From Balneolales bacterium (GTDB lineage: Bacteria > Bacteroidota > Rhodothermia > Balneolales > Cyclonatronaceae): a stretch of DNA of 39,794 nt. A program made the translations under genes and the position numbers. Location: positions 1 to 39,794 of the forward strand of contig JAFIET010000033.1 in NCBI GenBank assembly GCA_020832405.1, in the 5' to 3' direction. Under the pieces are notes generated by a model. That model was given only the letters and a program-made list of their open reading frames with translations, searched no databases and was not told the DNA's origin. Of this stretch, positions 10,001-39,716 are shown in pieces. Each line of letters starts with the position of its first letter. Within the stretch, counting starts at the first letter, position 1.

Positions 10001-11120
10001 TTCTGGAAAAACGATTGGCCTCACCTTTGTAAAGACCGTTGTTTGTGCCTGCAAAAACAAGCTGATTGAACTCGGTTACTGTAACAAGGTCGCTTTCCGG
10101 CAAGCCCTGCGTTCCCAAAAACCTTCGCATGGGCCGCCCGATTTCAATAGCGGTAATTCCGTTAGCTCCTGAAACCCAAAGCGTTCCGTCCGCATCCTGA
10201 TAGAGCCGGTGAGAAAGATTAGCTGTAAGCAGATTTTGATCTGAAAAGTGGTACGTCTGATTTCCTGCTGCATCAAACACGAATACGCCGGCGGATGTGG
10301 CAACAGCTATACTGCCATCATGCAGGACAAGTACGTCACCAATGCCAATAAAACGCTCGTTACCGAAATCCTGAAGCTGTGCCGAAAGGTGCCAGTCGTT
10401 ACCGGTCAGTATCCAAAGGTCGCCATTTGGGGTAAGGGCTGCAGGTTTACCGCTCAGATTCAGCAAGTAAAGTGATGAGGTAATGAGGGGAAACCCGCCG
10501 TTGGTTAGCGTTCCATCTGCGTCATAATAATAGAGCCCGCGACCGGAATCGTGAATCCAGGTTTGGGAACCGATCTGCCGGACATCGGAAAAGTTCCCGG
10601 TCGGTAAAAAGGGTTTAATGGTTCCATTGTTGCGGTCGTATCTGAAGCCCGCATCCCCCGATAAAAAATAAACGAAGGCTCCGTTAACAGCCGTGAAGCG
10701 AAAATCCTGAATGGATGTGATGGAATCAGGTAATAAATGTGTGAGGGGCTCAAAGCTGTAATTGGCCGCTTCATCATAGATCAGCCTGCCGAAAGAAGTA
10801 TTGGTGCCGGCATAGATGGTTCCGTTTTCATCTGTCGCAAAAGAAAGCGCGTGCGAGCTCGCGGGTGTCGGGATATTGCGCCAATGCGTACCGTCGAACT
10901 GCTGAATGCCAAAATTGGTGTTGCCGAAAAGCAGGATGCCGTTCGCATCGCGGGTGATGGCCCAGGTTTGCAGCGTCCCGAAATAATCTGCACCGCGGGT
11001 AAAGCTCACCGAAAAAGGATAGCCGTCAGGCGGGGTGTCGGACTGATTTGATTTGGCAAAAACAGGGTCGCAGAGCGCACAGCCGGCAATAAGCAGAAAA
11101 AAAGTGTAGAGAAACTTCAC
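7059..11120 (-). CDS. Hybrid two-component system regulator HTCS1 (sensor kinase, receiver and AraC output)
   Basis: This 1353-residue single-chain sensor-regulator starts with a signal peptide (1-22); LLIAGC could also be read as a lipobox. Two-component-regulator propeller repeats fill about 25-640, then a Y_Y_Y domain (about 690-750; YQYKLEGADTDWSDW), one membrane helix (about 753-773), a HisKA domain with phospho-acceptor His near 820 (SHEFRTPLTLIKGP), HATPase_c (N box NILSNAVKYT, DTGIGIP, GSGIGLNLV; about 925-1020), a receiver (about 1087-1207, Asp near 1140 in SDVMMPG, Lys in ITKPFSP), and an AraC-type HTH (about 1245-1353). A periplasmic or surface ligand is probably sensed by the propeller and passed through autophosphorylation to the HTH. 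In Bacteroidota such proteins usually control nearby glycan-use or surface genes. It is followed on the same strand by the T9SS gene at 649-6702. Confidence 0.93.
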   Translation of the reverse strand: MKFLYTFFLLIAGCALCDPVFAKSNQSDTPPDGYPFSVSFTRGADYFGTLQTWAITRDANGILLFGNTNFGIQQFDGTHWRNIPTPASSHALSFATDENGTIYAGTNTSFGRLIYDEAANYSFEPLTHLLPDSITSIQDFRFTAVNGAFVYFLSGDAGFRYDRNNGTIKPFLPTGNFSDVRQIGSQTWIHDSGRGLYYYDADGTLTNGGFPLITSSLYLLNLSGKPAALTPNGDLWILTGNDWHLSAQLQDFGNERFIGIGDVLVLHDGSIAVATSAGVFVFDAAGNQTYHFSDQNLLTANLSHRLYQDADGTLWVSGANGITAIEIGRPMRRFLGTQGLPESDLVTVTEFNQLVFAGTNNGLYKGEANRFSRIIEDQVIYAFHETPAGLLIATSRGLYVYDASGNITMLFDEGRVFSLAGSRKSASLFYFNALGDGLWAASLNADKTFSFTRIFPYENTIFTINEDRYGDIWLGTGRNGVIQLKVRRDQAGLPEVTAHRQFTAADGLPADSYNYTKQTPDDVGFITEDGFYRLNGERDAIIKDTRFGALFGEEGGFRVWPVTPGRDGNTWIARAALKIGKSTYNEATGLYDWHESEFTRMAVYRNVSAIHESANGRVYFQAFNRIGYFDPNIPNRPLPQFRTHITHVTASDSLVYQGWGRSENGSRPVMAYDSNNLRFNFGLISFLPADRNAYQYKLEGADTDWSDWTNELYVDYRNLREGTYTFRVRGRNLYYVPSEPASFTFTILPPWYRSLWAYLGYGIFFIGIVFGFSKWRTQQLLERQAELEEQVALRTEEVRQKSEQLEKLDKIKSTFFSNVSHEFRTPLTLIKGPTERLIADKTLPLQKRISEYERILENSNRLLSLIDQILNLSKMESGTYTLQLRRVELTALLRKIAGWYRELARRKGLEFHLQLHDEPFWIYADTELTELLFSNILSNAVKYTQDGSVALSCIITGETAEIRVKDTGIGIPAGEQQHIFDRYYRAKSGLLSTSGSGIGLNLVKYVAGLHGMEIALTSEEQAGTEVAIGCKTGLAHIKADYTVLEDDDSIQMHPQNTPPFEHRHLPFSGTESLPEANLSAVATIDESEDIPLLLLADDNHDIRAFIRSVLGNEYRYAECANGLELVAISKSLQPDIILSDVMMPGLDGISASRIIKEDPETAHIPIIMITAKGGNHNELTGLESGANDYITKPFSPEILRARVFGQLTLLMRLRNYYRQKLRLKPVPSASGTEAAAGAVTTKDTSAHQPDSMPDWQQKIDADLHNPDYSVQDMGATLAMSSSSLNRFIKKEAGCSPQEYIRRRRIELACASMKQQEGTISEIAYAVGFNSLSYFCRVFRQLKGVTPKQFIEGV

Positions 11121-13744: not shown

Positions 13745-15670
13745 TCAGTTATCAGATATATCAGCTTCAAGACCGGCCGGCTGCTGATTTTTCAGGCGGG
13801 CAAATTCTGAAGGACTCATCCCCGTGAACTTTTTGAATGAACGGTAGAAGGAGGCCCTCGAATTAAAACCGCATGCTACGATTATATCATCTGTGCTTAG
13901 CTCACTATCGCTTTTCAGAATAAGCCTTCTCGCTTCAAGTACCCTGTGATAGTTAATAAAGTTGTTGAAGTTCATCTCGGAATAGGTAACAATAGCTCTT
14001 GAAACGTAGGTTGTGTTAGATGAAAGAATTTCGGCCAGCCGGCTCAGGCTCAGATCCGGTTGGGTATATATGTTGTGATTGTTCAGCTGTTCCAGAATTT
14101 GCGCATAAAGTGCTTCATAGGGGCTGTCATCATCGGTTTGTTCAAGCCGGGATATGCTGAAATTTCGGATGAATTTTTGGGAAGCCTCGAGCTCACGGCT
14201 TCTTTCGTATAGGCTTTTTAAGTTTTTGTGCCGGATGTGCGCAGAAAAGCCGGTGACTGAAAACAGCAGCAGTAAAGCCACTATCATAAACCATTGCATC
14301 CGCAGCTGATTTTGTTTATCGGCAATCTGAAGCTCCTGAAGCAGCAGCTCCGAATCTTTAAGGTCAATCTCGTATTTCACCTTCAGTTCTTCTGCCTCAA
14401 CTTTATACTCAGCATTGAGGAGCTCACGGTCTAATTCGTGAAATTTATTAAAATAGGTGAATGCGGGTTCGAACTCATTCATAGCTTCATAAAGTCGGGA
14501 CGTGTTGTATAAAAGCTGCCGGAATTCATAACGAAGCTGCATTTCTTCAATTAAGGGCGCGGCGGCCTGGTACGCTTCAAGGGCTTCGTTGTACATACCC
14601 TGTCTGTATTTTGAATAGCCAACATTGAGCTGTCCGATGGCAATTCCGTAATTAAAGCCGTGTTCCTGCGATATCCGGAAAGACTGCAAGTAACTTTCTC
14701 CTGCCTCATAAAACTGATCGAGATCGGTATATACGTTTCCCAGATTCATGAAATACTGTGCCTGCGAAAGAGGAGTTCCGGTTTCACGGATGTAGTCCAC
14801 AAAGTTCAGATATATTTCCAGGGCCTGCTCGGGCTTATTGAGTAACCGGTAAATACTCGCAATGTTAGACGCAGCAGAGAAAATGCCCCTTTCATCGGCG
14901 TCATTGCTATACGCCTCTTTGGCACGTTCATAAAAACGCAGTGCCTGATCAAGATCATCGAGCATGTGGTAACAGTTTCCGATTTTGATGAGGTGAAGGG
15001 CATAGGGCGTGTGATGTATACTAACGGCCTGTAAATAATTATTCATTTGACCTTCGGGAGTAAGGTCAGACGCTTCCAAATAGTGCAGCGCTCTAAAATA
15101 GTGGTCGAGGGCCCGGTTACAGGCACCGTTAAAATAGTAGCTGTTAGCCAATGTACGGTAGTAGTTGCTTAAAACTGCTGGTGCAGAAGAACGTTTTTTT
15201 TGCGGATCAAGCGCCTCCAGTAAATCAATAGCTTCCTGAGATGATCTCGTTTTGTTTATAAGGGTTGCCAGATGCGTTCCTGAAATGAGTTGCGCATCTG
15301 AATGTATTTTGGGGCTGAACGTTTGGAAATATTGAATAAAGCGTGGGTAAGGGTTCTCTAAGGCATCATGTGCGAGCGTAAGGTCTCGTGCAATAAGTAG
15401 CACGTAGGGCAGTAAATCCGCGCGCTCCTCGCTAACCATCAGGTTTTCCAGCTCTTCAAAGTATAAAACAGCCAAATCAGGATTTTCAGCTACAATAGCC
15501 ACATATCGCGAAATAATATCAGCATCAGAACCCTCCGATGTGGTGAAGATAGCGACCGGATCAACAGGGTCTGTGATTGATTGGGCTTCAGCTGTGCTGC
15601 CGGCTGCCGGCATAAAGGCATGAAAGATTGCAATGGCAATCAAAGCGAACTTTATTATTACAGACCACAT
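13745..15670 (-). CDS. TPR-containing transmembrane AraC-type regulator (first copy)
   Basis: This 641-residue protein has an N-terminal signal or anchor segment (1-30, ending STAEAQ), TPR repeats over about 170-420 (ALRFYERAKEAYSNDADERG, NLGNVYTDLDQFYEAGESY), a short coiled coil, one membrane helix (about 458-478, FMIVALLLLFSVTGF), a basic juxtamembrane stretch (RHKNLKSLYERSREL), and an AraC-type HTH (about 553-628, with CGFNSRASFYRSFKKFTGMSP). The topology suggests a periplasmic TPR sensor joined directly to a cytoplasmic DNA-binding domain, without kinase or receiver. The paralogue at 20560-22491 has the same plan, including the R-x-x-NL-x-x-LY-x-RS-x-EL juxtamembrane motif. Downstream are its terminator, a 21-bp direct-repeat site and the broken small gene. 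It may now lack its main target. Confidence 0.85.
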   Translation of the reverse strand: MWSVIIKFALIAIAIFHAFMPAAGSTAEAQSITDPVDPVAIFTTSEGSDADIISRYVAIVAENPDLAVLYFEELENLMVSEERADLLPYVLLIARDLTLAHDALENPYPRFIQYFQTFSPKIHSDAQLISGTHLATLINKTRSSQEAIDLLEALDPQKKRSSAPAVLSNYYRTLANSYYFNGACNRALDHYFRALHYLEASDLTPEGQMNNYLQAVSIHHTPYALHLIKIGNCYHMLDDLDQALRFYERAKEAYSNDADERGIFSAASNIASIYRLLNKPEQALEIYLNFVDYIRETGTPLSQAQYFMNLGNVYTDLDQFYEAGESYLQSFRISQEHGFNYGIAIGQLNVGYSKYRQGMYNEALEAYQAAAPLIEEMQLRYEFRQLLYNTSRLYEAMNEFEPAFTYFNKFHELDRELLNAEYKVEAEELKVKYEIDLKDSELLLQELQIADKQNQLRMQWFMIVALLLLFSVTGFSAHIRHKNLKSLYERSRELEASQKFIRNFSISRLEQTDDDSPYEALYAQILEQLNNHNIYTQPDLSLSRLAEILSSNTTYVSRAIVTYSEMNFNNFINYHRVLEARRLILKSDSELSTDDIIVACGFNSRASFYRSFKKFTGMSPSEFARLKNQQPAGLEADISDN

Positions 15671-16408: not shown

Positions 16409-19400
16409 ATGCAAGAGGCCGTAGCCTACGATAAACCCGCCGCCGCATTAGCCGGTTTTTATGAGGAGGAGCTTACCCGGGCCCTGCAGCGGTTCCATGA
16501 AGCGCTCACGGCGCCGGTTGCTGAAAAGCTGCGGGTTGCAAGGGTGCAGCTGCTGCGCATCAGGGGGGAGGAGTCCGGGCGAAGACGGCTGGTGCTCGAA
16601 CAGCTTGAGGCGCTTCGCCGCGCGCTCGCAGCGCCGGAAATGGCAAAGCTGCTTGCCGGGGCAGCCGGTGCGTGGGAAAAAGAGACCTTAACCGCCCTTG
16701 AGACCCTGCCCGAAAAGCTGCTTTGTGTGCAGGGGGATGAACGCTTCCGCAGCGCACCCGGAAATTCCCTCTACATAAAAACCGGGAAGGCGTTCAAGCG
16801 GATCGGCTTTGGCGTTGGGAAAAAAATCCACGCCTTTAATACCAGGAATTCCGAAAAGCCTTCGCCCTACCATTTCACCCAAGAGCTCCCGCTAAGGGCC
16901 CTCAGTACTGCGCTGATTCTCGGGGATGAAACGGTATTTCGCGATACTGTCTCATTTGCATGCAGTAAAATCTCCGTGATTGTCGCTGCAATGCTGCTCG
17001 ATGAGGGCGGGGTAGATCCGGTTTCCGAACCGGAAGAAGCACTGGCAAACGGAGCAGCCTCCGGCAGCAAAACGGAGCCCGCTTCCGCCCCGGCTTCCTT
17101 TGTTCTGCTTGCCGGTGCTGCACAGGCTGAGCGTATCACCAAAGCCATCAGCCGCCTTGAGGCGCTCAACGCACTTCCGGCAAAAGAGCACCCGGCGCTT
17201 GGTCCGCTTTTGGAGAAGAACGTCCGTTTTACGGAACTTACCGGCACCTTTGAGCTGCCGGTTAAGCGGTTTGGTGCGCACCGGGTGCAGCAGCTTCAGA
17301 AGGCAGCTATGAAACCGGCTGCTGCCGTTGCCCAAAAATGGCAGCGCTGTTTTAACAGCGTGATCACCGATTTCCGGGTTGAGCTGGAGCTTGTTGCGCT
17401 TGAAAGCAAGCTGAAGGGCCTCGAAGCGCAGCTGCTGACCCTTACCCACGATTTTTTCAGGGATGCCTGTTACGTGCCGGTCGAAAGGGCCATAAGCCTG
17501 CTTACCGAACAGCGGGAAATCCTGAAAGAGGGCGCTGCATCCGCGAAAGTAAAGGCGAAGATTGCTGCCGTTCAGAAAGCCATTCAGGAGGGGCTGCCTG
17601 CTGCCGGCAGTGAGGGTCAGGATGATGATGAAGATGCAGGCGCCGCCCGTGCGTTTACCGAGCAGATCCGGCAGCTGCTGAGCGACGCCAGCCTTTTTGT
17701 GCAGCGTTTTGAAGAAGAACTGACCCTGGCAGAAGCCCGGACCCTTCGCTTCCCCGATCCGGAAATCCGCACGGACAGCTTTAAATGGCGGAAACTGATT
17801 ACCCGCTTTTTGCAGAGTAAAGCCTTTCGGCCGCTTGACCCGGCCGCGCACGGCTTTGATGTGTTTATCGAAAAGCAGCGGGCAGAACTCCCCGAAGCTG
17901 CCGGCATTGCGGATACCAACCTTCAGGCAGCGGTGTTCGCCATCACGGAGGACGGCGAAGCCGATCCGCTGGAAATTGCCGAAACCGGTCTGCAGCGGGC
18001 CATCAATACCCTGGAGGCCAATGTGGCCGAAATCCGCGAAAAGCAGGGCGCCTGGGTGAAGCTGGTCCGCACCGGTCCCGCCTCGGCTATGAAGCGGCTG
18101 CGCGAGGTGATGCGCGAACGAACCTATGATGCCTTCGAACTGCAGGATAAAGCCCTGCTCGTGCAGGAGGGTGCCCTCAACTGGAAGGAGCGCGGTCAGC
18201 GTTTGGCGGCCCTTGCCGGTGATAAGTTTTCTTTGGGTTTCCGCTACGGCCGCATGCGCTTTGTGGCTGCCTATGCGCCTCTTGCGCGCTTTCTGGGCCT
18301 TGAACCCCCGAAAACTGAAAGCACCCGCGAGCGCCTGAACCTCACAGAGTACCTCATTCAAAACAAAACCAACGATGAAAAACTGCCTTTTATTTATCAG
18401 CGGCTGTTCCGGCGCTCGCTGCAGATTGAGAAGCGGTTTTACCTCGACGGTCCCGGAAATCTGGGGCATCTGGTAACGGGGTATCAGCAGTGGTACAAGG
18501 GCATCCCGTGGACCATGGCCATTGTGGGGCAGAAAGGCAGCGGAAAGAGCACGCTCATTCATTTCTTTAAATCGCAGGAGGCCCTCAAAACCGGTTTGGT
18601 GCACATCGATCTGGCGGAAACCATTTTTGAGCCTGCACCCATGCTGCGGGTGATATCGAAAGCGGCCGGCTTTTCCGAAACCGACACCCTGGAAGCGTTG
18701 GTCGAAAAATTCGAACGCAGCCGCAAGAAACGCATCATCATTTTCGAAGGGCTGCAAAACCTGTACCTGCGAAACATCAACGGCTATGAAGCTATCCGTC
18801 AGTTTTGGGAGCTCATTTCGCAGACCTCCAAACAGGTGTTTTGGGTGGTGTGCTGCAGCCGGGATGCCTGGTATTTTTTTACGCGCATGTTCAGTGCCGA
18901 TCAGTTCTTTTCGCAGGTCCTTCGGGTTGACAGCCTCACACCCTCACAGATTGAGCAGGGCATCATGATGCGGCACCGGGCGAGCGGCTTTGAAATCGAG
19001 TTTACGCCTTCCTCCGAAATCACCAAAAGCCGGGCTTTCCGTAAATTACTGGGCGATAAAAAAGCCCTGCAGCAGTACCTGCAGCGTGAGTACTTTGAAC
19101 AGCTGGCTGAAATGGCCGACGGAAACTTCAGCATTGCCATGATTTTCTGGGTGAACTCGATCTCCAAAACCGATGCCAATACCATCACCATTTCCCCGAT
19201 TGAAATAGCCGACATCGACGTGCTCGAATCGCCCTCCCGTGAGGTGCAGTTCACCCTCGCTTCGCTGGTGCGGCATGATGTGCTCACCGCCGAACAGCTG
19301 GCGCTTGCCCTGCATCAGCCGCTCTCTGAAGCCCGCCTGATGCTCGGGCGGCTCGCAGCCAAAGGCCTGATTGTGAAAGTAAACGAAGGCTACACCATCA

Positions 19401-19462
19401 ATCACCTGGTGTACCGGCAGATTACGCGCTGCTGTCCGGTAAAAACATCCTGCACTAATTGA
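16409..19462 (+). CDS. Large P-loop ATPase with helical N-terminus and winged-helix C-terminus
   Basis: The 1017-residue protein has a long N-terminal region (about 1-690) rich in helix and charged coiled coil, with no signal peptide or membrane helix. An AAA/STAND-like ATPase core follows: Walker A GQKGSGKST at 707-715 (Lys 713) and a Walker B-like strand RIIIFEGLQN at 775-784, where Glu 780 stands in place of the usual Asp. After a sensor-like stretch (FWVVCCSRDAWYFF), the C-terminal 70 residues (about 945-1010, TLASLVRHDVLTAEQLALAL...AAKGLIVKV) look like a winged helix. The fold suggests ATP-dependent remodelling or signalling in the cytoplasm; I do not recognise a named family. Its stop is 11 bp before the MscS-type gene, so the two are probably cotranslated and may cooperate. 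Confidence 0.8.
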   Translation: MQEAVAYDKPAAALAGFYEEELTRALQRFHEALTAPVAEKLRVARVQLLRIRGEESGRRRLVLEQLEALRRALAAPEMAKLLAGAAGAWEKETLTALETLPEKLLCVQGDERFRSAPGNSLYIKTGKAFKRIGFGVGKKIHAFNTRNSEKPSPYHFTQELPLRALSTALILGDETVFRDTVSFACSKISVIVAAMLLDEGGVDPVSEPEEALANGAASGSKTEPASAPASFVLLAGAAQAERITKAISRLEALNALPAKEHPALGPLLEKNVRFTELTGTFELPVKRFGAHRVQQLQKAAMKPAAAVAQKWQRCFNSVITDFRVELELVALESKLKGLEAQLLTLTHDFFRDACYVPVERAISLLTEQREILKEGAASAKVKAKIAAVQKAIQEGLPAAGSEGQDDDEDAGAARAFTEQIRQLLSDASLFVQRFEEELTLAEARTLRFPDPEIRTDSFKWRKLITRFLQSKAFRPLDPAAHGFDVFIEKQRAELPEAAGIADTNLQAAVFAITEDGEADPLEIAETGLQRAINTLEANVAEIREKQGAWVKLVRTGPASAMKRLREVMRERTYDAFELQDKALLVQEGALNWKERGQRLAALAGDKFSLGFRYGRMRFVAAYAPLARFLGLEPPKTESTRERLNLTEYLIQNKTNDEKLPFIYQRLFRRSLQIEKRFYLDGPGNLGHLVTGYQQWYKGIPWTMAIVGQKGSGKSTLIHFFKSQEALKTGLVHIDLAETIFEPAPMLRVISKAAGFSETDTLEALVEKFERSRKKRIIIFEGLQNLYLRNINGYEAIRQFWELISQTSKQVFWVVCCSRDAWYFFTRMFSADQFFSQVLRVDSLTPSQIEQGIMMRHRASGFEIEFTPSSEITKSRAFRKLLGDKKALQQYLQREYFEQLAEMADGNFSIAMIFWVNSISKTDANTITISPIEIADIDVLESPSREVQFTLASLVRHDVLTAEQLALALHQPLSEARLMLGRLAAKGLIVKVNEGYTINHLVYRQITRCCPVKTSCTN

Positions 19463-19473
19463 AAAGGAAAAGC

Positions 19474-20552
19474 ATGAAAAGCGCCTGCTTCATCATTTTG
19501 TTTCTGACGGCTTCCCTTTTTGGTGAGCAAGCCCGGGCATGGTCCGTCTCGGAGGCTTCCGGAGCCGCCTTGGTGCAGCTTGCGGCTGAGGTGCCCGTGC
19601 AGGATGCCCCACCCGCTGTCCTGCCCGATACGCTCATTATCATTCAGGCCGAACCGGATGCTGCTCCCGAAGATGCAGCATCCGCACCGGAGGAGGAGTC
19701 AGGCGAAACCGAAACCGAAGCTGTAGCTGATGAACTCGAAGAAGAGGTGAGTCAGATCCGTGGGCTGGTTTCTTTCCCCAAAATATTGCTGTCGGTTTTG
19801 CTGCTGGTCTCGGCCTGGTTTGTGAACCGTTTCGTGATCCGCATCCTCGATAACCTTGCGGAGCGGGCCACCAATTACCGGCTGTTCATCAAACGCCTCA
19901 CGCCCATAACCCGCATCAGCATCTGGACCTTCGTTATTTATGTGGTGATAGCCGGCATTATCAGTCCGCCGTTTGAAACCGTGCTTGCCATCACCGCATC
20001 TTTTGGTATCGCGGTCGGTTTTGCCTCTCAGGATATTTTGCGCAATATTTTCGGGGGGATTATGATCATCCTCGACCGCCCGTTTCAGGTGGGCGATAAA
20101 ATTCAGGTGGGCGAGCATTATGGCGAAGTGAAAAGCATCGGCATCCGCAGCTGCCTCATTGAAACCCCGGACGACAACACCGTAGCCATCCCCAACGGGG
20201 AGCTCATGAACCGTGCCGTTTCCAACGCCAACTCAAGCGCGCTCGACTGTCAGGCGTGGCTGAAATCTTCATCCCGGCAACGGCTGACCTAATGCTTGCC
20301 AAGGACATCGCCCGGCGCGCCGTTTTTTCCTTTCCATATCTGTACCTCAACAAACCGGTCGCCATTATCGCGCTCAACGAAATCCACAATCGCGGTTTGT
20401 TTGTAAAACTTCGGGTGAAGGCCTACGTGCTCGACATCCGCTACGAGTTTCTCTTCAAAAGCGATATGACGGAGATGATTGTAACCGAGCTGAACCGCCT
20501 CGGCGTTTTGGCCCGGATGCCCGGGGAGGTATCACAAAAGGACGTTTCCTAA
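19474..20552 (+). pseudogene. MscS-family mechanosensitive channel, split by a one-base frameshift
   Basis: The first frame gives a signal peptide (MKSACFIILFLTASLFGEQ), an acidic linker, membrane helices (about residues 106-125 and 148-168), the MscS pore helix (about 171-195; FGIAVGFASQDILRNIFGG) and the beta domain (RPFQVGDKIQVGEHYGEV, AIPNG). It then runs out of homology at DCQ and stops at 20292. The C-terminal domain continues one frame over from GTG at 20256 (VAEIFIPATADLMLAKD) to the stop at 20552. Adding one base near 20254-20255 restores a continuous 359-residue channel. The ATG at 19474 is preferred over a TTG at 19459 because AAGGA lies just upstream and the signal peptide starts there. 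It sits between the ATPase and the TPR-AraC gene in a tight operon. The break could be a real mutation or an assembly error. Confidence 0.8.
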
Positions 20553-20559
20553 AATTCAG

Positions 20560-22491
20560 ATGAATATGATTAAGGTGATGAGCTGGCCCTGCCTTGCAGG
20601 CTTATTGACGGGCCTTCAGCTGCTTGTGTTTTGCCTGCCGGCAGCGGGACAAGACGCGCAGCAAAGCGCGGATGAAATCAGAACCGAACTTCAGCAGCAG
20701 GAGCTGAGTGAAACGGCCCTGCTCGCGCTTGCGGAACGGATTGAGGCCCTGCCTTTTTCCGAGGCCGCTGCCGCCCTTGAACTTACGGGGCTTGCACAGC
20801 AGCAGGCCGAAAGCCGGGGCTACGCATCGGCAGCCCTTCCGCTGGTCCGCATCTGGTACCGGTTCAGCTTTGATGTGCCCGCGATTGAAACGGCCCTGGC
20901 GCAAACCGAAGTGCTGCTGCAGCGGTTTCCGGTGCTGCCCGATGCGAGAAGCCGGGAAACCATTGAAATTTTCCGGGCATTGTTTCTGATTGATTTGGGC
21001 CGGCAGCCGGAGGCGCTCAGCCTGCTGCGGGAGCTTGCCGAGCAGAGTGATAACCCGGCGACCGTTGCCGTGGCCCGCGCAAATATGGCGCGCGTGCTCT
21101 CCGGCCTCGGGCAATATCAGCTGGCCGTTGAGGCAGGGCTCGAAGCCATCACCCATTACCGCAACACCGGCGACACCCGCACCCTGTTTAACCTCTACAA
21201 TAACCTGAGCGGCTACTACGCAGTGATGGAGCTAACGGAGCTCGCGCTTGATGCTGCCCAAACGGCCTATGCGTTTGCCCTGCAAACAGAAGACCCGCAG
21301 CTGCTTTCTGATGCATATCTCGGACTCGGGACATCCTGGCACCGGTCCGGAGATCCGGAGAAGGCGGTGGCGTTTCTGGAGCAAAGCCGTGAGCTCGCAC
21401 AGGGTCCGGGCATGCAGCTGCGGCTGGCTCAGGTGCTCCTAAACCTGGGAAATGTGTACCAAAGCAGCGGAAATCACGAGGAAGCGATCCGGAATTACCG
21501 GCAGGCAGAGGCGCTTTCTCAAGATCTGGGTCAGCCGTACGGCATTGCCCTCAGCCGCTACAACCTGGCCGTGAGCCTGCAACAGCTGGGCAGGTACGCA
21601 GAGGCCGTACGGTATTATGAACTGGCCGCACCCTGGTTTGAGAGCAGTGGCAACATTAAAGAGCTGATGCTGCTCACCGAAGGGCTGGCCAACAGTCTGG
21701 CGCGTGCAGGCGATCTGGAACGGGCCTGGCCGCAGCTGCTGCGCTATAATCAGCTGTTCAGGCAGGTGTATGATGAGGAAAATCAGCGCACGCTGAACGA
21801 GGCACAGACCCGTTTCGAAACGAGTATACGCGAACAGCAGCTGGCTTTGAGCCTGTCGCTGAATGAACAGCAGGAAAAGCAAATCCGGCTGCAATGGGCT
21901 TTGATTGCCCTGCTCGTGCTCGGCGCCGGCGCCGGACTCGCATTTTTGAGGCTCAGGGACCAAAATCTGAATCAGCTGTATCAGCGAAGTGAGGAGCTGC
22001 TCGAGCAAAGCAGTATGCTGCACGCTGTTCAGCCGGCTGAGGCAGAGCTCTCAGAGGCACTTCCGGTTTTTGATGCTGATGAGGACACGGGCTCCGATTC
22101 TGAGCCCTCACAGCCGGAGCCGGTCGGGAACAGTGCTTACACAAAATTGTATCAGGCTTTCGTGCAGGCTCTCGAAAAAGACAAAATTTATCAGGATGAA
22201 AACCTTTCCCTGAAGGAAGCGGCCCGCTACCTGAAAACCAACGAAAAGTATCTCTCAACGGCTATTTCGCAGTATTCTAACACCAACTTCAGCGGGCTGG
22301 TAAATTTCTGGCGTATCCTTGAGGCACGGCGTCTGTTGAGGCTGCACGGCGATGACCTGCCGGTTCAGGAAATTATGCACAGCTGCGGCTACCGCTCATC
22401 AACTACCTTTTACAATGCCTTCAAAAAATACACAGGGATGACGCCCCGGCAGTTTGTGACGATCTCCATGAAGGAGCGGGTGAAATTTTAA
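20560..22491 (+). CDS. TPR-containing transmembrane AraC-type regulator (second copy)
   Basis: This 643-residue protein has a signal peptide (about 1-31, ending LPAAGQ), a long alpha-helical TPR region (about 50-410; NLGNVYQSSGNHEEAIRNYR, NLAVSLQQLGRYAEAVRYYE), one membrane helix (about 444-465, LQWALIALLVLGAGAGL), juxtamembrane RLRDQNLNQLYQRSEELLEQ, an acidic spacer, and an AraC-type HTH (about 545-640, with CGYRSSTTFYNAFKKYTGMTP). The plan matches the regulator at 13745-15670: periplasmic TPR sensor, cytoplasmic DNA-binding output, no kinase. It starts 7 bp after the end of the channel reading frame, so is the third gene of the ATPase-channel operon. The next gene is the giant T9SS protein at 22817-29554, its likely target through the 21-bp direct repeat at 22665-22697. 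Confidence 0.87.
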   Translation: MNMIKVMSWPCLAGLLTGLQLLVFCLPAAGQDAQQSADEIRTELQQQELSETALLALAERIEALPFSEAAAALELTGLAQQQAESRGYASAALPLVRIWYRFSFDVPAIETALAQTEVLLQRFPVLPDARSRETIEIFRALFLIDLGRQPEALSLLRELAEQSDNPATVAVARANMARVLSGLGQYQLAVEAGLEAITHYRNTGDTRTLFNLYNNLSGYYAVMELTELALDAAQTAYAFALQTEDPQLLSDAYLGLGTSWHRSGDPEKAVAFLEQSRELAQGPGMQLRLAQVLLNLGNVYQSSGNHEEAIRNYRQAEALSQDLGQPYGIALSRYNLAVSLQQLGRYAEAVRYYELAAPWFESSGNIKELMLLTEGLANSLARAGDLERAWPQLLRYNQLFRQVYDEENQRTLNEAQTRFETSIREQQLALSLSLNEQQEKQIRLQWALIALLVLGAGAGLAFLRLRDQNLNQLYQRSEELLEQSSMLHAVQPAEAELSEALPVFDADEDTGSDSEPSQPEPVGNSAYTKLYQAFVQALEKDKIYQDENLSLKEAARYLKTNEKYLSTAISQYSNTNFSGLVNFWRILEARRLLRLHGDDLPVQEIMHSCGYRSSTTFYNAFKKYTGMTPRQFVTISMKERVKF

Positions 22492-22816: not shown

Positions 22817-25800
22817 ATGCTAATCCTCATCTCCACTATCATGTCAGATTCCGCTTTTTCTGCCTGCTATTTGTACGCCCTGTGCCGGGATACCGCCCAA
22901 ACCGGGAACCGCTATCTGAACAAATCCGGGCTGATTTGCCTTACACTTCTTTTGGTACTGATCACCCTTCCGGCTGCGCAGCTGTCCGCAGCCGATCCGC
23001 TGTACGCCGGCGGAAGCGGAACGGCTGAAGATCCCTACCTGATCGAAACAGAGGCGCAGTTTCTGGATATTGCGGCAAACTCCGGCGCTCATTTCCTGCT
23101 GCTAAACAACATCACCGTAACCCAGCGGACGGGCGCTAACCTGACCGGCGTTTTCAACGGGGGCGGCCATAACATCCATGTAAGCGTGAATGCCGGTGAT
23201 GTTACCAATTCAGGCCTGTTTTCCAGCCTGAGCGGCAGCGGTACGGTTCGCAACGTGACCTTTACCGGAACTTACAACACAGGATCTGGTGATAATTCCG
23301 GCCTTGTAGCCGGAAACATGAGCGGAAGCAGCCTGATTGAGGATGTGATTTCACGGGTGAATTTTACGAAGAGCGGATCAGGTGGTAATACGGGCGGGAT
23401 TGTGGGCTCAATGAGCGGCGGGACGATCATTCGTACTGTAAGTACCGGAAACACTGTCGGCAATGTGACGGTTGGAGGAATTACGGGATTTGGTACCGGG
23501 GGGCTTATTGAGCAGTCATTAAACACGGGTAATGTACATGCTACGGGTGGTAACGGATCGGGTGGAATTACAGGAGGTTCACAGGCTGGTACAGTCCGTG
23601 ATTCATACAGCACTGGTGCGGTAACCGGGAGTATTAGCTGCGGAGGTGCCTTTGGATATATAACCAATGCTGCTGTGATTGAGCGGGTGTATTCCGCTGG
23701 AGCAGCAAATTGTTCAGTGACTTCATCTGGTGGATTTGTGGGTCAGCGTACCGGTGGTACAGTTTCGCATGTTTTTTATGACCTGAACAGAAGCATTTTG
23801 TTCACTGACCCGGTTGCACAGGGCCTCTCCGGTGCCCGGATGCGAATGGCCTCCTTTTTTACAGGATTCGATTTTGATGATATCTGGCAAATGCATCCCG
23901 ATTTTCCTTCCTATCCGCTACTGCGTTCGCTTTCCTACAATGAACCTTTTAGCAGCCCTGCGGTCCTCCCGATTCCGGGGCTTCTTGAAGAACCTATGTT
24001 CGCGTCAGGTACCGGTACCGCCGAAGATCCTTTCGTAATTACAAGCGGTGCGCACGTTCAGAACATTGGCCATAATTCATCTACCCATTATCTGTTGGCC
24101 AACGATGTGCTGGTCAGTCAGCGCACCAATATACCTTTCGCCGGGGTGCTGGAAGGTTCGGGCAATACGATTACGCTTAACTTTAACCTGGGCAATGTTA
24201 ATGAAACGGGCTTGTTCAGACTAATACGGGGTAGTGGCACAGTCAGGAATCTCATTATTGATGGGAATATATCCCAAAGCGGCGGTTCAATTACCGGATC
24301 GGTTGCAGCAGATATGTTTAATACCAGCCTGCTCTACAGGGTGATTTCAAGGGTTGAAATTAACGCCGGTTCGACAAGTGTTATTGGAGGATTAGTTGCC
24401 AGGTTATATGAAGGGACCATCAGAGAATCAGCATTTATGGGCAGCATATCTGCTCCTTCGGGTGGGACTATCGGAGGCCTTGCTGCCCAAATAAATTGGT
24501 CAGGCAGTCTGATAGAGCGATCCTTTAATACCGGAACCCTCACGGCCCAGTCAAACGGGGGGTGGGTTGGCGGAATTGCCGCAACCATGAACGCTGGTAC
24601 CGTCCTTGATTCATTCAGCACAGGAACAATAAGTGCATTTGCAAACTGTGGAGGTGCTTTTGCGGCTGTAACGAGCACAATATCTCCAATTACAGTCACA
24701 CGGGTTTATGCAGCCGGTTTGGTAAATTGTGACGGATGGAATACTGGTGGTCTCGTGGGTCAAAGTAATGCAACTGTTTCGGCCAGTTTTTATGATGTAG
24801 ATGCAACGGGCAAAACCAGCAGTGCCCGTGGTACCGGGCTCACAGGCGAAGAAATGCGTACCCGCACATTTTTCGAAGACGCGGGCTGGGTTTTTGAGGG
24901 CGAAAATGCGTCGTGGGCGATGTTGGAGGCTCCGCTTCAGTCGTATCCTTTTTTAGTTTGGTTCGATTACGACTCACAGACTGACCCGCCGGGTTATCTC
25001 TCTCCTTTTTCCGGCGGAAAGGGTACCTCCGCTGATCCTTACCGGATTGAAACCGAGGCGCATTTTTTAAACATAAGCCTGGCACCCGCTGCCCATTTTC
25101 TGCTGATGAACAACATCACCGTAACCGAACGGACAGGCACTGCCCTGACCGGCGTTTTCAACGGGGGCGGGCATACCATCCATGTAAGCGTGAATGCCGG
25201 TGATGTTACCGATTCCGGTTTGTTTTCCAGCCTGAGCGGCAGCGGTACGGTTCGCAACGTGACCTTTACCGGAACCTACACCACCGGAGCAGGAGACAAC
25301 TCCGGACTTGTAGCCGGAAGCATGAGCGGAAGCAGCCTGATTGAGGATGTGATTTCGCGGGTGAATTTTACGAAGAGTGCATCAAACTTGAATACAGGTG
25401 GTTTGGTTGGGCGGATGACAGGAGGGACGATTAGTCGTAGTGCGGTTACTGGTAATATTACTGCAACTTTTCCTGTTGCTATGGGGGGAATTGCAGGACA
25501 TGTCAGAGGTGGGTTAATTCAGCAATCTTTTGTATCCGGCACTTTGTCAACATCAAGTGCAAACGGGGTTGGCGGAATAGTCGGCGATGTGGGTGATGCC
25601 ACCATAGAGGACGTTTACTTTAATGGAACCATATCTGCATTTGGTTCAATAAATTGTGCAGCAGGATTTGGTTTGTCCGTTTCAGGATCGGTAATCCGCC
25701 GGGTTTACATAGCAGCTTCTGTCAACTGTGGACCACATACATTTAATGGTGTATTTGTTGGGCAACTTGGAGGTGGCTCAATTACAAACAGCTATTACGA

Positions 25801-28800
25801 TCTGAACTTAGCAGCGGAAGTTGATACTAAAGCAGGGACAGGTCTGAGTGCCGCGAGAATGAGAACAGAATCTTCTTTTTCAGGCTTTTCTTTTGGGGGC
25901 AGTAATCCTGTTTGGATGATGCACCCTGATTTCCCGTCATTTCCTTACCTGAAATTTTTTGATTATGACGAGCCTTTTCAAACACCACCGGTTTTCCCGA
26001 TACCCGGGCTTTTGTCTGAGCCTATGTTTGCCGGCGGAGATGGTACGCCGGCAACTCCGTATCTGATTGAGACTGCTACTCACTTTAGCAACATTGGTAA
26101 TTTCTCTCCAACCCATTACCTCTTGCTGAATGATGTGACTTTAAACCAAATGACTAACCTGTCTTTTGCCGGTATTTTGGAAGGCGGTGATAACACAATT
26201 ACAATTGGCATATCACAGGGCGATGTAAGCAATGCAGGTTTGTTCCGCAGGTTAACAGGAAATGCTGTTGTTCGTAACCTCACGATGACGGGTACATTTA
26301 CACAAACAGCAGGTCAAATTGCGGGTGGCTTTGCGGCTATAATGGACGGTAACAGCCTCATTGAACGGGTTGTCTCGTATGTGAATGTTAGCGCAGGGGG
26401 CACGTTTACTGTTGGTGCTGTTGTGGGTGAACAGAGAGGAGGTACGATCAGATATGCTGCTTCATTCGGAAATACCACTGCATCCACGGGGATTGGCGGG
26501 TTGGTTGGAAACCAGACAGGTGGGTTAATTGAGTTTGTTTTTAATGCAGGTGTGATCACCGCTACAGGTGGCAATTCGGCAGGCGGTATTGTAGGGTCGA
26601 CCAGAAATAGCACAATCAGAGATTCATACAGCATTGGCAGAATAAATTCGCAACTTAATTGTGGCGGTGCCATAGGGATAGTTTCATCAGGATCAACCGT
26701 TACAAGGATTTATGCTGCCGGCTTGGTTAATTGTGATTTCCCCTCAAATGTTGGTGGTCTCGTTGGTCAGAATAACGGCAACGTCACTGACAGTTTTTAT
26801 GATACTCAGGCAACCGGTAAAAGCAGCAGCGCGGGCGGTACCGGCCTCACAACTGCTCAAATGCGTACCCGTACGCCTTTCGTAAACGCGGGCTGGGTTT
26901 TTGAGGGAGAGAACGCACCGTGGAACACGCTCAGCGTTTTTCAGTCTTATCCGTTTCTGCGCGCCTTCACCTACGACAACGTGTTCGATCCGCCCGAAAC
27001 ACCCGTTTTCCCGGTTCCGGGTCTGTTTAATCCCTTTGCAGGTGGTTTCGGCAGCGAAGCATCACCCTTCCTCATTTCTGAAGAAGCGCACTTTATGAGT
27101 ATTGTCGGTGATGCGGGTTTCTTTTATCTGCTTCAGAATGACATTACCGTTACACAGATGACAGGTCTGGCATTTAGGGGTGATTTTGATGGGGGAGGTA
27201 ACAACATTCATGTGGATATTGATGCCGGTATCGGACAAAACGCGGGTCTTTTCAGAATACTCCATTCGGGTAAAGTTCGTAATCTCCGTTTAAGCGGGCA
27301 TTTACGGGCTTTAAATCCCCAATTTACAGGTTTGATTGCTGCTGAAGCCTTTGGCAATGCACGTATTCAGAATGTACATTCGTCGGCTTGGGTTGAGGTA
27401 ACGGGAACATTACAGGGTTACGCCACCGGCGGACTAACCGGACGGATGACCAATTCATGGATTCAAAACAGCAGCGTTACGGGCACAACAGAGGGCATTC
27501 AGAATGTAGGGGGGCTTGCGGGCCTTGTCGAAGCTTCGTCGCTTATAGAGCGTTCTTACAATACAGGAACCATTATTGCATCTTTGGAGATTGCAGGAGG
27601 GCTTACCGGCCGCCTTGCCGGAGGAACTGTTCGTGATTCCTACAGTACAGGAGCCATACAGTCAAGCTATTATTGCGGCGGTGCCATTGGCTTTTCTCAG
27701 TTTACAAATTTGGTTGAACGGATATTTGCAACCGGTTTTATTGACTGCATTCTCTTACCAATGGTACCTCCAAGCGGCGGACTCATTGCCATTGACAATA
27801 ATAATTCCACGGTTGTGAACAGCAGCTATTTCGACGCAGATGCAGCCGGTATCGGCTGGAGTGTGGGTGGGGGAGAAGCCCGTACAAGCGCGCAGATGCG
27901 CAGCGGGGCGACCTTTGCCGGTTGGGATTTTGAGGATACCTGGCAGATCGAGAGCGGCGGCGTGCGCCTGAACTATCCCTATCTGAGAAATTTGTACTGG
28001 GAAGAGCAGCAGGCAATTCCCGGCCTTATATTTCACACCGATCTTGAGGCCCCGGCCGGCTGGCAGATGCTGGTTTCGCCGGCGGTAAACACCACCTACG
28101 GAGAGCTGCTCTCAGGCATCTGGACACAGGGCTATCCCGGCTCAAATCATCCCGAAAGCAATCAGCCGAATGTGTTCTGGTACAATGAGTCACAGGCCGG
28201 CGGACAGTGGCAGCTCCCGGGTGACAGCGGTCATCTGGCGGGAACCGGCTCTGCTTCGGGCAGCAACGCGGGCCGGGCAACCGTGGCGTGGGTCTTTGGT
28301 CCGCTGGAGCACAACGGTCCGGTAATCTGGCCGAAGCCGCTGTTGCTGGGCGGGACCGAGCAGCCGGGCGCGGTGAGCATAGCGCTCAGCCGAACCTCCG
28401 AAACCGGGGAGGCCTTCGCCGGCTGGCACCTGGTTGGCAATCCGTTTGCAGATCCGCTCACGTGGAATGCAGCCGCCGCTGCCGCGCAAAACGGCATAGA
28501 GCCGGTAATCTACAGCTGGGATAAAGCCGCTGAAGCACACCGTTTTGTGGACGGCCGAACGGGCGCAGGCACGAGAGGCACAGCCGTTAACCCGTTTGAA
28601 GGCTTCTGGGTGAGGGTCGCCGCCGGTGAAAACGGCGGCACCTTTAACGCAGCCCCGGCTCAGGGCGGCATGGCCGGGAGGGAAGCTGCCGACGCGGATA
28701 ACGATCTGATGCAGCAGGAATCAGGGGAAGAAGCCGGGAAACTTGCCGTTTTGGAGACCGAACCCTTATTTATAAGACTCGAGACCGCACAGCAGGAACA

Positions 28801-29554
28801 CTTTGAGGCCGTTGTGCTTGAGCTGCTGGATTTCGGGGATGATGTTTTTTACGGCAGTCCGGCGCCGCTTGGCGTTCCGGTAATGCAGTTCGCTTTTGCC
28901 GGTGCTGAGGGTTTCCCGCAGGCTTCGGTAGGCCGTGCAGTAATTACCGAGGGCCTTACAAGAAGCTTCCCGCTCGTTTTTGATGCGGCCCTGAGCGGCA
29001 GCTTCACGCTTGAGGTCAGCGGCTCAGACGGCTGGCACGACAAAATACAGGCGGCCGTGCTCGATCATCATACGGGAATGGTGCATCCGCTCAGCAACGG
29101 CGGCAGCCTGAGCTTTACCCATCAGGCATCAGCCGGCATACTTCAGCTGCGGGAACAAAGCCGGTCGATGAGCCCGGCCGAGCGGCTCGCGCTGGCACAG
29201 CAGCCTCAGCTTCTGACCGCCGACACCCGCTTTGAGCTGCAGCTCACCCGAAGCCTGCCTACAAATCTGGAGCCTGAAAACAGGCTTCCGTCAGTGATCA
29301 CCCTGCATCAGAACTATCCCAACCCCTTCAATCCGACTACGACCATCCGCTACGCCCTGCCGGAAACGGCGGAGGTAAGGCTGGAAGTGTACAATGTGCT
29401 GGGTCAGCGGGTTGCGGTACTTGTAAACGGCACGCAGCAGGCGGGCTGGCACACGGCGAGCTTCGATGCCTCACGCTTGTCGAGCGGCTTATACCTGTAC
29501 CGGCTTCAGGCGGGCAGCTATGTGGAAACGAGAAGTATGATCTTGGTGAAGTGA
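22817..29554 (+). CDS. Giant T9SS-secreted GLUG-module surface protein
   Basis: The protein is 2245 residues from the first ATG. The signal-peptide core (LICLTLLLVLITLPAAQLSA) lies unusually deep, at about 39-58, so the true start is uncertain; ATG 22841 or a rarer codon nearer the core are alternatives. Five modules of about 335 residues follow (starting near 60, 392, 729, 1068 and 1405), each opening with a GG-x-GT-x-x-PY-x-I motif, a LLLNNITVTQ strand and GLUG repeats (GGIVG, YSTGA), and closing near SYPFLR. Modules 1 and 3, and 2 and 4, are closest to each other. A pre-C-terminal region (about 1743-2150; GWQMLVSPA, IWTQGYPG, GWHLVGNPF) matches that of the protein at 649-6702. The T9SS sorting domain occupies 2162-2245. 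It is probably a long beta-helical adhesin or coat protein on the cell surface. Function unproven. Confidence 0.88.
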   Translation: MLILISTIMSDSAFSACYLYALCRDTAQTGNRYLNKSGLICLTLLLVLITLPAAQLSAADPLYAGGSGTAEDPYLIETEAQFLDIAANSGAHFLLLNNITVTQRTGANLTGVFNGGGHNIHVSVNAGDVTNSGLFSSLSGSGTVRNVTFTGTYNTGSGDNSGLVAGNMSGSSLIEDVISRVNFTKSGSGGNTGGIVGSMSGGTIIRTVSTGNTVGNVTVGGITGFGTGGLIEQSLNTGNVHATGGNGSGGITGGSQAGTVRDSYSTGAVTGSISCGGAFGYITNAAVIERVYSAGAANCSVTSSGGFVGQRTGGTVSHVFYDLNRSILFTDPVAQGLSGARMRMASFFTGFDFDDIWQMHPDFPSYPLLRSLSYNEPFSSPAVLPIPGLLEEPMFASGTGTAEDPFVITSGAHVQNIGHNSSTHYLLANDVLVSQRTNIPFAGVLEGSGNTITLNFNLGNVNETGLFRLIRGSGTVRNLIIDGNISQSGGSITGSVAADMFNTSLLYRVISRVEINAGSTSVIGGLVARLYEGTIRESAFMGSISAPSGGTIGGLAAQINWSGSLIERSFNTGTLTAQSNGGWVGGIAATMNAGTVLDSFSTGTISAFANCGGAFAAVTSTISPITVTRVYAAGLVNCDGWNTGGLVGQSNATVSASFYDVDATGKTSSARGTGLTGEEMRTRTFFEDAGWVFEGENASWAMLEAPLQSYPFLVWFDYDSQTDPPGYLSPFSGGKGTSADPYRIETEAHFLNISLAPAAHFLLMNNITVTERTGTALTGVFNGGGHTIHVSVNAGDVTDSGLFSSLSGSGTVRNVTFTGTYTTGAGDNSGLVAGSMSGSSLIEDVISRVNFTKSASNLNTGGLVGRMTGGTISRSAVTGNITATFPVAMGGIAGHVRGGLIQQSFVSGTLSTSSANGVGGIVGDVGDATIEDVYFNGTISAFGSINCAAGFGLSVSGSVIRRVYIAASVNCGPHTFNGVFVGQLGGGSITNSYYDLNLAAEVDTKAGTGLSAARMRTESSFSGFSFGGSNPVWMMHPDFPSFPYLKFFDYDEPFQTPPVFPIPGLLSEPMFAGGDGTPATPYLIETATHFSNIGNFSPTHYLLLNDVTLNQMTNLSFAGILEGGDNTITIGISQGDVSNAGLFRRLTGNAVVRNLTMTGTFTQTAGQIAGGFAAIMDGNSLIERVVSYVNVSAGGTFTVGAVVGEQRGGTIRYAASFGNTTASTGIGGLVGNQTGGLIEFVFNAGVITATGGNSAGGIVGSTRNSTIRDSYSIGRINSQLNCGGAIGIVSSGSTVTRIYAAGLVNCDFPSNVGGLVGQNNGNVTDSFYDTQATGKSSSAGGTGLTTAQMRTRTPFVNAGWVFEGENAPWNTLSVFQSYPFLRAFTYDNVFDPPETPVFPVPGLFNPFAGGFGSEASPFLISEEAHFMSIVGDAGFFYLLQNDITVTQMTGLAFRGDFDGGGNNIHVDIDAGIGQNAGLFRILHSGKVRNLRLSGHLRALNPQFTGLIAAEAFGNARIQNVHSSAWVEVTGTLQGYATGGLTGRMTNSWIQNSSVTGTTEGIQNVGGLAGLVEASSLIERSYNTGTIIASLEIAGGLTGRLAGGTVRDSYSTGAIQSSYYCGGAIGFSQFTNLVERIFATGFIDCILLPMVPPSGGLIAIDNNNSTVVNSSYFDADAAGIGWSVGGGEARTSAQMRSGATFAGWDFEDTWQIESGGVRLNYPYLRNLYWEEQQAIPGLIFHTDLEAPAGWQMLVSPAVNTTYGELLSGIWTQGYPGSNHPESNQPNVFWYNESQAGGQWQLPGDSGHLAGTGSASGSNAGRATVAWVFGPLEHNGPVIWPKPLLLGGTEQPGAVSIALSRTSETGEAFAGWHLVGNPFADPLTWNAAAAAAQNGIEPVIYSWDKAAEAHRFVDGRTGAGTRGTAVNPFEGFWVRVAAGENGGTFNAAPAQGGMAGREAADADNDLMQQESGEEAGKLAVLETEPLFIRLETAQQEHFEAVVLELLDFGDDVFYGSPAPLGVPVMQFAFAGAEGFPQASVGRAVITEGLTRSFPLVFDAALSGSFTLEVSGSDGWHDKIQAAVLDHHTGMVHPLSNGGSLSFTHQASAGILQLREQSRSMSPAERLALAQQPQLLTADTRFELQLTRSLPTNLEPENRLPSVITLHQNYPNPFNPTTTIRYALPETAEVRLEVYNVLGQRVAVLVNGTQQAGWHTASFDASRLSSGLYLYRLQAGSYVETRSMILVK
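23107..25394 (+). repeat. Internal 2004-bp tandem duplication in the giant GLUG gene
   Basis: Bases about 23107-23390 recur at 25111-25394, an offset of 2004 bp (668 codons, two modules), with long identical runs: for example the stretch from 23219 to 23271 appears unchanged 2004 bp later. Similarity drops abruptly at the start of the GLUG segment that follows. Module pair 2/4 is related at the same offset but more diverged. This implies duplication of a two-module unit, with later gene conversion or selection keeping the opening segments alike. Confidence 0.8.
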
Positions 29555-38600: not shown

Positions 38601-39716
38601 GCAAGCCTTGAGGGCAACGTATCCCTGGCAGATAACTCCGGCAAATCGCTGGCTATGATAAGCCTGCAGCTGATCAAACCCGGCAAGGCAAACATCACCC
38701 TTGAAAACATGGACATGCGCCGTCAGGTTGAAAACAACGGTGTGATTGCTACGGTTAGCCTTGCAACGGAGGAAGAGCCAGCAATGGTGAACTTCCAGCT
38801 GGGTGATTTCGCCGGCACGCGCGGTGAAATCGGCTTTGCTGACCTGGTCACTTTTGGAGATGCTTATTTCAGCGAAGCCGGCGGACACAACAGTGAGAGC
38901 TACGGGTTTCGCTTTGATATCGGCTTCGAAGGCAATACCGAGTACGGCCTGCTGCCACAGGCAGACGGTAAAATAGACTTCGAAGACCTGAACATTTTTG
39001 CCATCAGCTATTTTCTGTCAGCGACGGATGGCCTGCCCCGCGGCCTGCAGCAGGGCCCCGCAGAAGTAGAAATCGGTGAACCTGTGCTGGCAGACGGACA
39101 AATCCGCTTTCCGGTTAGCCTGAGTGGTGATGTGCTGGATGTGCGCTCGCTGGGACTGCGTTTCAGCTACAGTGGTATGTACTTCATCGGAACCGAAACA
39201 GCAGGTGCACTGGCTACACCCATGACCTTCAGCGCTTCGCGCAGCGAGAACGGTGAACTGCAGTGGGACAGCGCGGTTATTGGCGGGGAGCACGGGTCAA
39301 TTGGTGAGCCGGGTCTGATTGGGTATGTGATTTTTGAAGGTGATACTCCGGGCACGGTGCAGCTGAGTGAGGCACAACTACGCAACTCGCAGGGGCATCC
39401 CATAGACGGGCAGCCGGTGAATATTGATCCGGAGCCGGGCAGCGAGCTGCCAAAGGCCTTCGAGCTGAAGCAAAACTATCCCAACCCCTTCAACCCGACC
39501 ACAACCATCCGCTACGCCCTTCCCGAAGCGGCAGAAGTGCGGCTGGAAGTGTACAACATGCTGGGTCAGCGGGTAGCAGTGCTGGTGAGCGGCGCGCAGC
39601 AGGCGGGCTGGCACACGGCGAGCTTCGACGCCTCACGCCTGTCGAGCGGAATGTACCTGTACCGGCTTCAGGCGGGCAGCTTTACCCAAAGCAGAAGCAT
39701 GATGCTGGTGAAGTGA
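35637..39716 (+). CDS. T9SS-secreted surface protein with GLUG, cohesin-like and dockerin-like modules
   Basis: The 1359-residue protein has a signal peptide (about 1-39, ending NPAAAG), an IPT/TIG-like segment (about 78-105, [20 protein letters not shown]), a region resembling filamentous-haemagglutinin beta-helix (about 150-480; [11 protein letters not shown]), a GG-x-G-x-x-x-x-P-x-LI entry motif and GLUG repeats (about 505-800; GGLIG, YATGS). A cohesin-like domain (about 907-1038), a degenerate dockerin-like calcium-loop pair (about 1055-1128; [18 protein letters not shown]), a second cohesin-like domain (about 1142-1255) and the T9SS sorting domain (1274-1359) follow. A cohesin with a dockerin in one chain suggests self-association or assembly on the surface; that is inference. 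It lacks the GWHLV pre-C-terminal module of the other two giants. Probably controlled by HTCS2. Confidence 0.88.

Follow-up and report, generated by a model that had tools for sequence, protein, structure and literature searches.

A putative AAA+ switch protein paired with an MscS channel in Balneolales and recurrently fused to ion transporters in distant relatives

MscS channels are usually described as self-sufficient sensors of membrane tension, and we know of no described MscS with an AAA+ partner such as the one considered here. The 39,794-nucleotide contig JAFIET010000033.1 (hereafter the window), one of 188 contigs in the draft genome of a Balneolales bacterium (GCA_020832405.1), whose closest named relatives are Balneolia metagenome-assembled genomes, carries a gene for a 1017-residue P-loop protein (hereafter the ATPase; positions 16409 to 19462, forward strand) followed directly by a gene for an MscS channel. 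In searches of open PMC papers, no title or opening of an abstract described such a pair. We propose, with a probability of roughly 60%, that the ATPase and MscS work together as one unit in osmotic and ion homeostasis, the ATPase serving as a switch that binds nucleotide and regulates osmotic ion flux. This proposal combines a predicted fold with adjacency, co-occurrence, fusions to transporters and a missing catalytic glutamate, all four of which are read directly from sequence.

Pairing of the two genes was examined in 92 stretches of DNA, comprising the window and 91 stretches fetched around ATPase matches; these are not all independent, because some genomes yield two through split contigs or the presence of two modules. 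An MscS gene adjoins the ATPase gene on the same strand in 85 of the 92 (72 downstream, 13 upstream), and manual inspection of L131, where the MscS open reading frame (ORF) overlaps the start of an over-long ATPase ORF, adds one further case. The remaining six stretches (L036, L050, L061, L140, L141, L148) end at a contig edge. Thus every one of the 86 stretches with a readable flank has MscS next to the ATPase, and one clade has the gene order reversed. A first-pass annotation of this DNA had held that ATPase homologues lying mostly away from MscS genes would count against a link between the two; the survey gave the opposite result. The gap between the genes is 15 nucleotides or less in 79 of the 84 loci other than the window, with a median of 1 (many negative values are an artefact of choosing the longest start), and in the window the MscS ATG lies at 19474, 11 nucleotides past the ATPase stop. 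MscS was also directly downstream in 27/27 loci of a named genome collection, which covers largely the same species as the other stretches. Amidase_3, uridine kinase, M49 peptidase and ankyrin genes that flank the pair at one locus (L040) recur, judged by ORF size, solely within the same family, and we treated them as local synteny.

The two genes also co-occur closely. The ATPase is present in 31 of 59 relatives (both figures include the window's genome) and in 71 of 394 genomes of a phylum sample, itself an even draw from a larger group. Profile A2, made from the paired MscS proteins (E ≤ 1e-50), matched the same 31 relatives, as judged by comparing the lists by eye, and 63 of the phylum genomes, every one of them ATPase-positive. 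The eight genomes with an ATPase and no A2 match (G059, G113, G123, G216, G220, G267, G403, G414) have a divergent adjoining MscS, and Pfam verified the MscS domain in examples of these. Genera g8, g20, g25 and g32, which otherwise have the pair, include members that lack both genes, so the pair seems to have been repeatedly co-lost. Distance matrices of ATPase cores and MscS proteins correlate with r of 0.69 over 81 rows and 0.775 over the 45 Balneolia-type rows (0 of 1000 permutations in each case). In either gene order, the ATPase and MscS evidently behave as a unit of inheritance.

The ATPase itself belongs to no named family that we could assign: Pfam, NCBIfam and PADLOC returned only sub-threshold P-loop matches, the Pfam match to AAA_22 (E = 9.5e-6) falling slightly short of its cut-off, with weak TrmB and Replic_Relax matches at the C-terminus. 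A phmmer search of the window protein against solved structures gave nothing useful, and an ATPase profile against the same structures gave P-loop matches and a short C-terminal match to YusO. Structure prediction (pLDDT 82.2, pTM 0.49) yielded three regions. Residues 1 to 634 (16409 to 18310) are predicted to form an arm of long helices and coiled coil, also helical when modelled alone (pLDDT 82.5). Residues ~640 to 935 (18326 to 19213) are predicted to form an AAA+ core that, with a winged-helix region at residues ~940 to 1017 (19226 to 19462), lies nearest to ORC/Cdc6 in VIA-align comparisons (7jgr_G, Z 16.2, rmsd 3.7 over 242 residues; 2qby_B, Z 15.7). The winged-helix region is delimited by the secondary structure of the model, and the ORC alignments extend to residue 1008. 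Foldseek neighbors also included TnsC, Apaf-1, the plant NLR ZAR1 and Avs4, and NSF is a further structural neighbor. The ORF, the P-loop match and the predicted model therefore agree with the first-pass description of an ATPase with a helical N-terminus and a winged-helix end, and the fold search it had called for points to an ORC/Cdc6-like protein. The best VIA match to the N-terminal arm was a designed helical bundle (Z 12.8), which is uninformative. The arm is missing in one genus-level group (g8), where homologues are short (~300 to 450 aa). Core-only ATPases (ORFs of 298 to 433 aa) that still adjoin an MscS gene were seen in L046-L049, L051, L052, L054 and L058.

Walker A (GxxxxGK[ST]) is present in the window ATPase as GQKGSGKST (residues 707 to 715, 18527 to 18553), with its lysine at position 713, and the Walker B region (18731 to 18751) has an acidic Glu780 followed by Gly781 in place of a catalytic glutamate. 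None of 83 cores has Glu in the position that follows the Walker B acid, a count that left out cores of ≤180 bits or ≤~320 residues. The Walker A lysine is kept in 42/45 Balneolia-type cores and in all cores fused to CPA-type antiporters (13/13), to K-Cl cotransporters (KCC; 5/5) or otherwise (1/1). It is lost from 19/19 cores of two lineages, being present in 0/4 standalone cores of f25 (family labels of this kind are working labels) and in 0/15 cores labeled MscS-upstream, a label that here takes in two stretches cut by contig ends. In the KCC-fused cores the Glu780 column holds Asn or His with Asp one place further, so the alignment of Walker B is uncertain there. Given this structure and these motifs, a hydrolysis-independent nucleotide switch fits better than a motor. 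A TrkA_N Rossmann domain was not detected in the window ATPase by Pfam at E ≤ 1, and the protein does not fall among RCK/KTN regulators.

In distant relatives the same ATPase is found as the tail of ion transporters. At 13 loci it follows a multi-pass N-terminus of ~430 aa of the CPA cation/proton antiporter type, with MscS downstream; PF00999 (Na_H_Exchanger) was found in 10 of the 12 such proteins tested (best E = 2.2e-22). Genes for TrkH (4.8e-57) and TrkA (2.9e-22) lie downstream of a CPA-fused locus, and both are present in 7 of the 13. Upstream, a gene for a 414-aa membrane protein (5021 to 6262 in L128, and equivalents) occurs in 12 of the 13 loci; PF00999 matched three of the 12 proteins, which are possibly a second antiporter subunit. 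At six further loci (L146, L149, L172, L175, L176, L177) the ATPase sits behind a K-Cl cotransporter, the gene being in pieces in L172 and L175, and in 6/6 the small adjoining MscS exceeds the PF00924 cut-off. The cotransporter part of L149 matches PF00324 (APC-type permease, 5.3e-48) and PF03522 (SLC12 C-terminal domain, 7.4e-7); TIGR00930 also matched it with E = 7.1e-114, yet at 381.9 bits against a curated cut-off of 953.4. The K-Cl cotransporter fusion aligned to the KCC4 structure with E = 1.6e-78. The core profile built from the window side matched the fused proteins tested at E = 2e-38 or better. The ions moved by the fused transporters (K+, Na+ or Cl-) are inferred from family names. 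Three genomes have two modules each, standalone and KCC-fused in G120 and CPA-fused and KCC-fused in G455 and G426, and a tree of 81 cores placed the KCC-fused (5 rows, 100/100), CPA-fused (13 rows, 97/93) and MscS-upstream (13 rows, 100/100) forms in separate clades, with a program warning of long branches. In L127, a class-level relative, a TrkH gene lies a few kilobases upstream of the pair.

Beyond the Bacteroidota, plasmids were the only other collection with matches, and all the proteobacterial and archaeal copies found are plasmid-borne. A core search of 72,556 plasmid records returned two Novosphingobium records; in N. pentaromativorans US6-1 an 'AAA family ATPase' is followed after 2 nucleotides by a 'mechanosensitive ion channel family protein'. 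The Novosphingobium ATPase itself has predicted membrane segments, and an MscK-like layout considered for it was dropped, since the N-terminal domains of MscK were absent in a Pfam scan. Searching with the full protein added Caulobacter sp. NIBR2454, where MscS overlaps the ATPase gene by 4 nucleotides and the pair lies in the vicinity of genes for a helicase and for conjugation; behind this pair is another, divergent MscS gene (9197 to 10135 in L181). With the Novosphingobium MscS as query, nine plasmid records matched at E ≤ 1e-20. A core lies directly upstream in five of them: the two from Novosphingobium, Caulobacter, the haloarchaeon Salinirubellus sp. SYNS196 and Halomonas sp. PA16-9. 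The remaining four, large MscS proteins of Rhodobacterales, had no core upstream. The Salinirubellus partner is a 331-aa 'hypothetical protein' to which the core profile gave 48.0 bits (at most 0.5 for 500 shuffled versions), and in Halomonas only a 206-aa piece of the core is in frame. Annotated copies that we saw carried generic or hypothetical names only.

In the window, the MscS gene starts at 19474 and contains a clear beta domain (PF00924, E = 2.1e-20, 73 bits against a cut-off of 20.2), in line with the channel that the first-pass annotation had named. That annotation took the ORF as written and overlooked a single-base shift near 20254 (20250 to 20259), which is evident from alignment with three intact relatives. 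The frame ends at 20292, 272 aa from the ATG, and the conserved C-terminal part continues in another frame from 20256 to 20552, so that the window gene is not an intact ORF through its C-terminal domain; in relatives the ORF is unbroken. Because no other damage is visible in the gene, the shift is either a recent mutation or an assembly or sequencing error, which cannot be told apart from a draft of 188 contigs. A profile search of the source genome (G000) gave no second match to the paired MscS subfamily. A terminator scan found 10 candidates against 10.3 in shuffles, i.e., not above shuffles, and a promoter scan was uninformative, with 7 candidates (3.8 in shuffles), every one of them on the minus strand.

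We propose that the helical arm, the ORC/Cdc6-like core and the winged helix together act as a switch that binds or senses some feature of the ionic, energetic or membrane state of the cell and adjusts partners in ion flux. In the window's lineage the partner would be the MscS release channel, and in distant relatives the switch would also adjust the CPA-type antiporter, the K-Cl cotransporter and possibly TrkHA. The ATPase would contact MscS physically and control its gating in a nucleotide-dependent manner. It might hold the valve shut during normal growth and free it upon hypo-osmotic stress; alternatively, it might match efflux to K+ uptake. We are less confident in any single direction of control than in the regulatory role as a whole.

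Several observations weigh against this role. The window's own MscS frame is broken. Six of the 13 CPA loci lack Trk genes at the corresponding place, and TrkH had no match in the window's own genome, where a Trk link of that form is thus not possible. The N-terminal arm had no Foldseek match at E ≤ 0.001 and is without an informative fold match. Common vertical descent would also give the correlation of distances seen between the two proteins. Adjacency speaks for shared function and is not proof of direct gating; it would be expected just as much of an assembly factor or of a co-regulated partner. The earlier suggestion that the ATPase might gate the channel or sense its state is well motivated by the 86/86 adjacency, while gating control itself is our inference from sequence.

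An assembly or quality-control factor, which would help the MscS heptamer and the transporters to be inserted, put together or taken apart without setting their activity, would share the AAA+ fold, the likeness to NSF and the strict pairing with MscS. That the unit is covalently joined, in cis, to antiporters and K-Cl cotransporters of full length suits a built-in regulatory domain better than a chaperone that binds transiently, and a catalytic glutamate absent from 83/83 cores and a Walker A lysine absent from two lineages speak against an ATP-driven remodeller; we consider this explanation unlikely. The winged helix raises another option, that the protein binds DNA and controls osmotic genes, with MscS merely co-transcribed. 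An ORC/Cdc6-like core joined to a winged helix, and the weak TrmB and Replic_Relax matches, would suit such a transcriptional switch, which we regard as improbable: multi-pass transporters of distant relatives carry the unit as their cytosolic tail, the Novosphingobium protein has predicted membrane segments of its own, and winged helices are also known as non-DNA-binding parts of STAND proteins.

A defense or cell-death role is just as improbable in our estimate. The first-pass annotation had suggested a membrane-damage or phage-response unit. Here a STAND-like sensor would open an MscS-family pore upon phage infection or membrane damage, and the presence of ZAR1, Apaf-1 and Avs4 among the fold neighbors, weak nSTAND Pfam matches in relatives (under the cut-off), plasmid-borne pairs in Alphaproteobacteria and the Caulobacter copy near helicase and conjugation genes all point that way. 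Set against these are a single copy in most Bacteroidota genomes, the correlated distances of ATPase and MscS, fusions to housekeeping ion transporters together with Trk, a best PADLOC E-value of only 0.0014 and the lack of any core match in 50,697 phage records; a scan of viral contigs likewise found no relative. The suggestion thus gains little from the comparative evidence.

The regulatory role proposed above concerns two genes, and the gene that follows them lies outside the conserved unit. It encodes a 643-aa membrane regulator of the TPR-AraC type (20560 to 22491, forward strand; PF13424, PF12833), with hydrophobic stretches starting at residues 6 and 442. The first-pass annotation had placed all three genes in one tight operon, and spacings of 11 and 7 nucleotides would favor TPR-AraC as the output of the ATPase-channel pair. 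The 11-nucleotide gap between ATPase and MscS stands; the 7-nucleotide gap starts from the out-of-frame piece of MscS. Homologues of TPR-AraC (E ≤ 1e-30) occur in 3 of 59 relatives (the window's genome included), only the window's own copy is listed at the ATPase-MscS locus, and its membership of the unit was dropped because the gene does not lie at this locus in relatives. We find such an output role very hard to credit, since other arrangements of regulator and surface-protein genes in the window explain TPR-AraC better. The same recurring pattern undercuts the idea that TPR-AraC reports from the unit to the downstream surface-protein gene. The window encodes three giant surface proteins that carry GLUG repeats and end in sorting tails for type IX secretion, at 649 to 6702 (reverse strand), 22817 to 29554 and 35637 to 39716 (both forward). 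Two hybrid two-component regulators with AraC output (7059 to 11120, reverse; 30428 to 34534, forward) and two TPR-AraC membrane regulators (13745 to 15670, reverse; and the gene at 20560) are also present. A regulator gene precedes each surface-protein gene on the same strand, with a small gene between in one case, which suggests repeated cassettes of regulator and surface protein.

A broader proposal, which we advance tentatively and with some doubt, is that the module represents a new class of osmotic controller in Bacteria and Archaea, in which one nucleotide-binding AAA+/STAND-type switch with partly dead catalytic motifs gates MscS and also serves, swapped in as a regulatory tail, on CPA antiporters and K-Cl cotransporters; a single sensor would then set solute release jointly with K+/Cl- transport. 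If so, a partner conserved in Bacteroidota, Proteobacteria and a haloarchaeon would place part of the MscS family under nucleotide-switch control and tie emergency release and K+/Cl- transport to a single regulator. Short and degenerate forms (~300 to 450 aa, and 331 aa in the archaeon) make the module directly testable.

Compared with known systems, the window MscS and every partner scanned with Pfam share the beta domain of small-conductance MscS channels (PF00924) and differ from them in always adjoining an AAA+ partner gene. Like ORC1/Cdc6, the ATPase is predicted to have an AAA+ core and winged helix, and the window copy has a Walker A motif and an acidic Walker B residue; unlike ORC1/Cdc6, it lacks the catalytic glutamate, bears a coiled-coil or transporter N-terminus and occurs in a context of ion transport rather than replication. 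STAND NTPases (NLR, Apaf-1, Avs) have a similar AAA+ and winged-helix layout as a nucleotide switch, whereas in the ATPase no repeat sensor was recognized and the context is one of transporters and MscS. A functional parallel is offered by the RCK/KTN (TrkA_N) domains on Kef and Trk and the C-terminal domain of SLC12, which likewise are cytosolic nucleotide-binding or regulatory parts of K+ transporters. The ATPase, in contrast, has no TrkA_N match and a different predicted fold, and is common to a channel, an antiporter and a cotransporter. Its constant place beside MscS and its fusions to transporters in distant relatives point to a module, so far undescribed, that controls the balance of salt and water.

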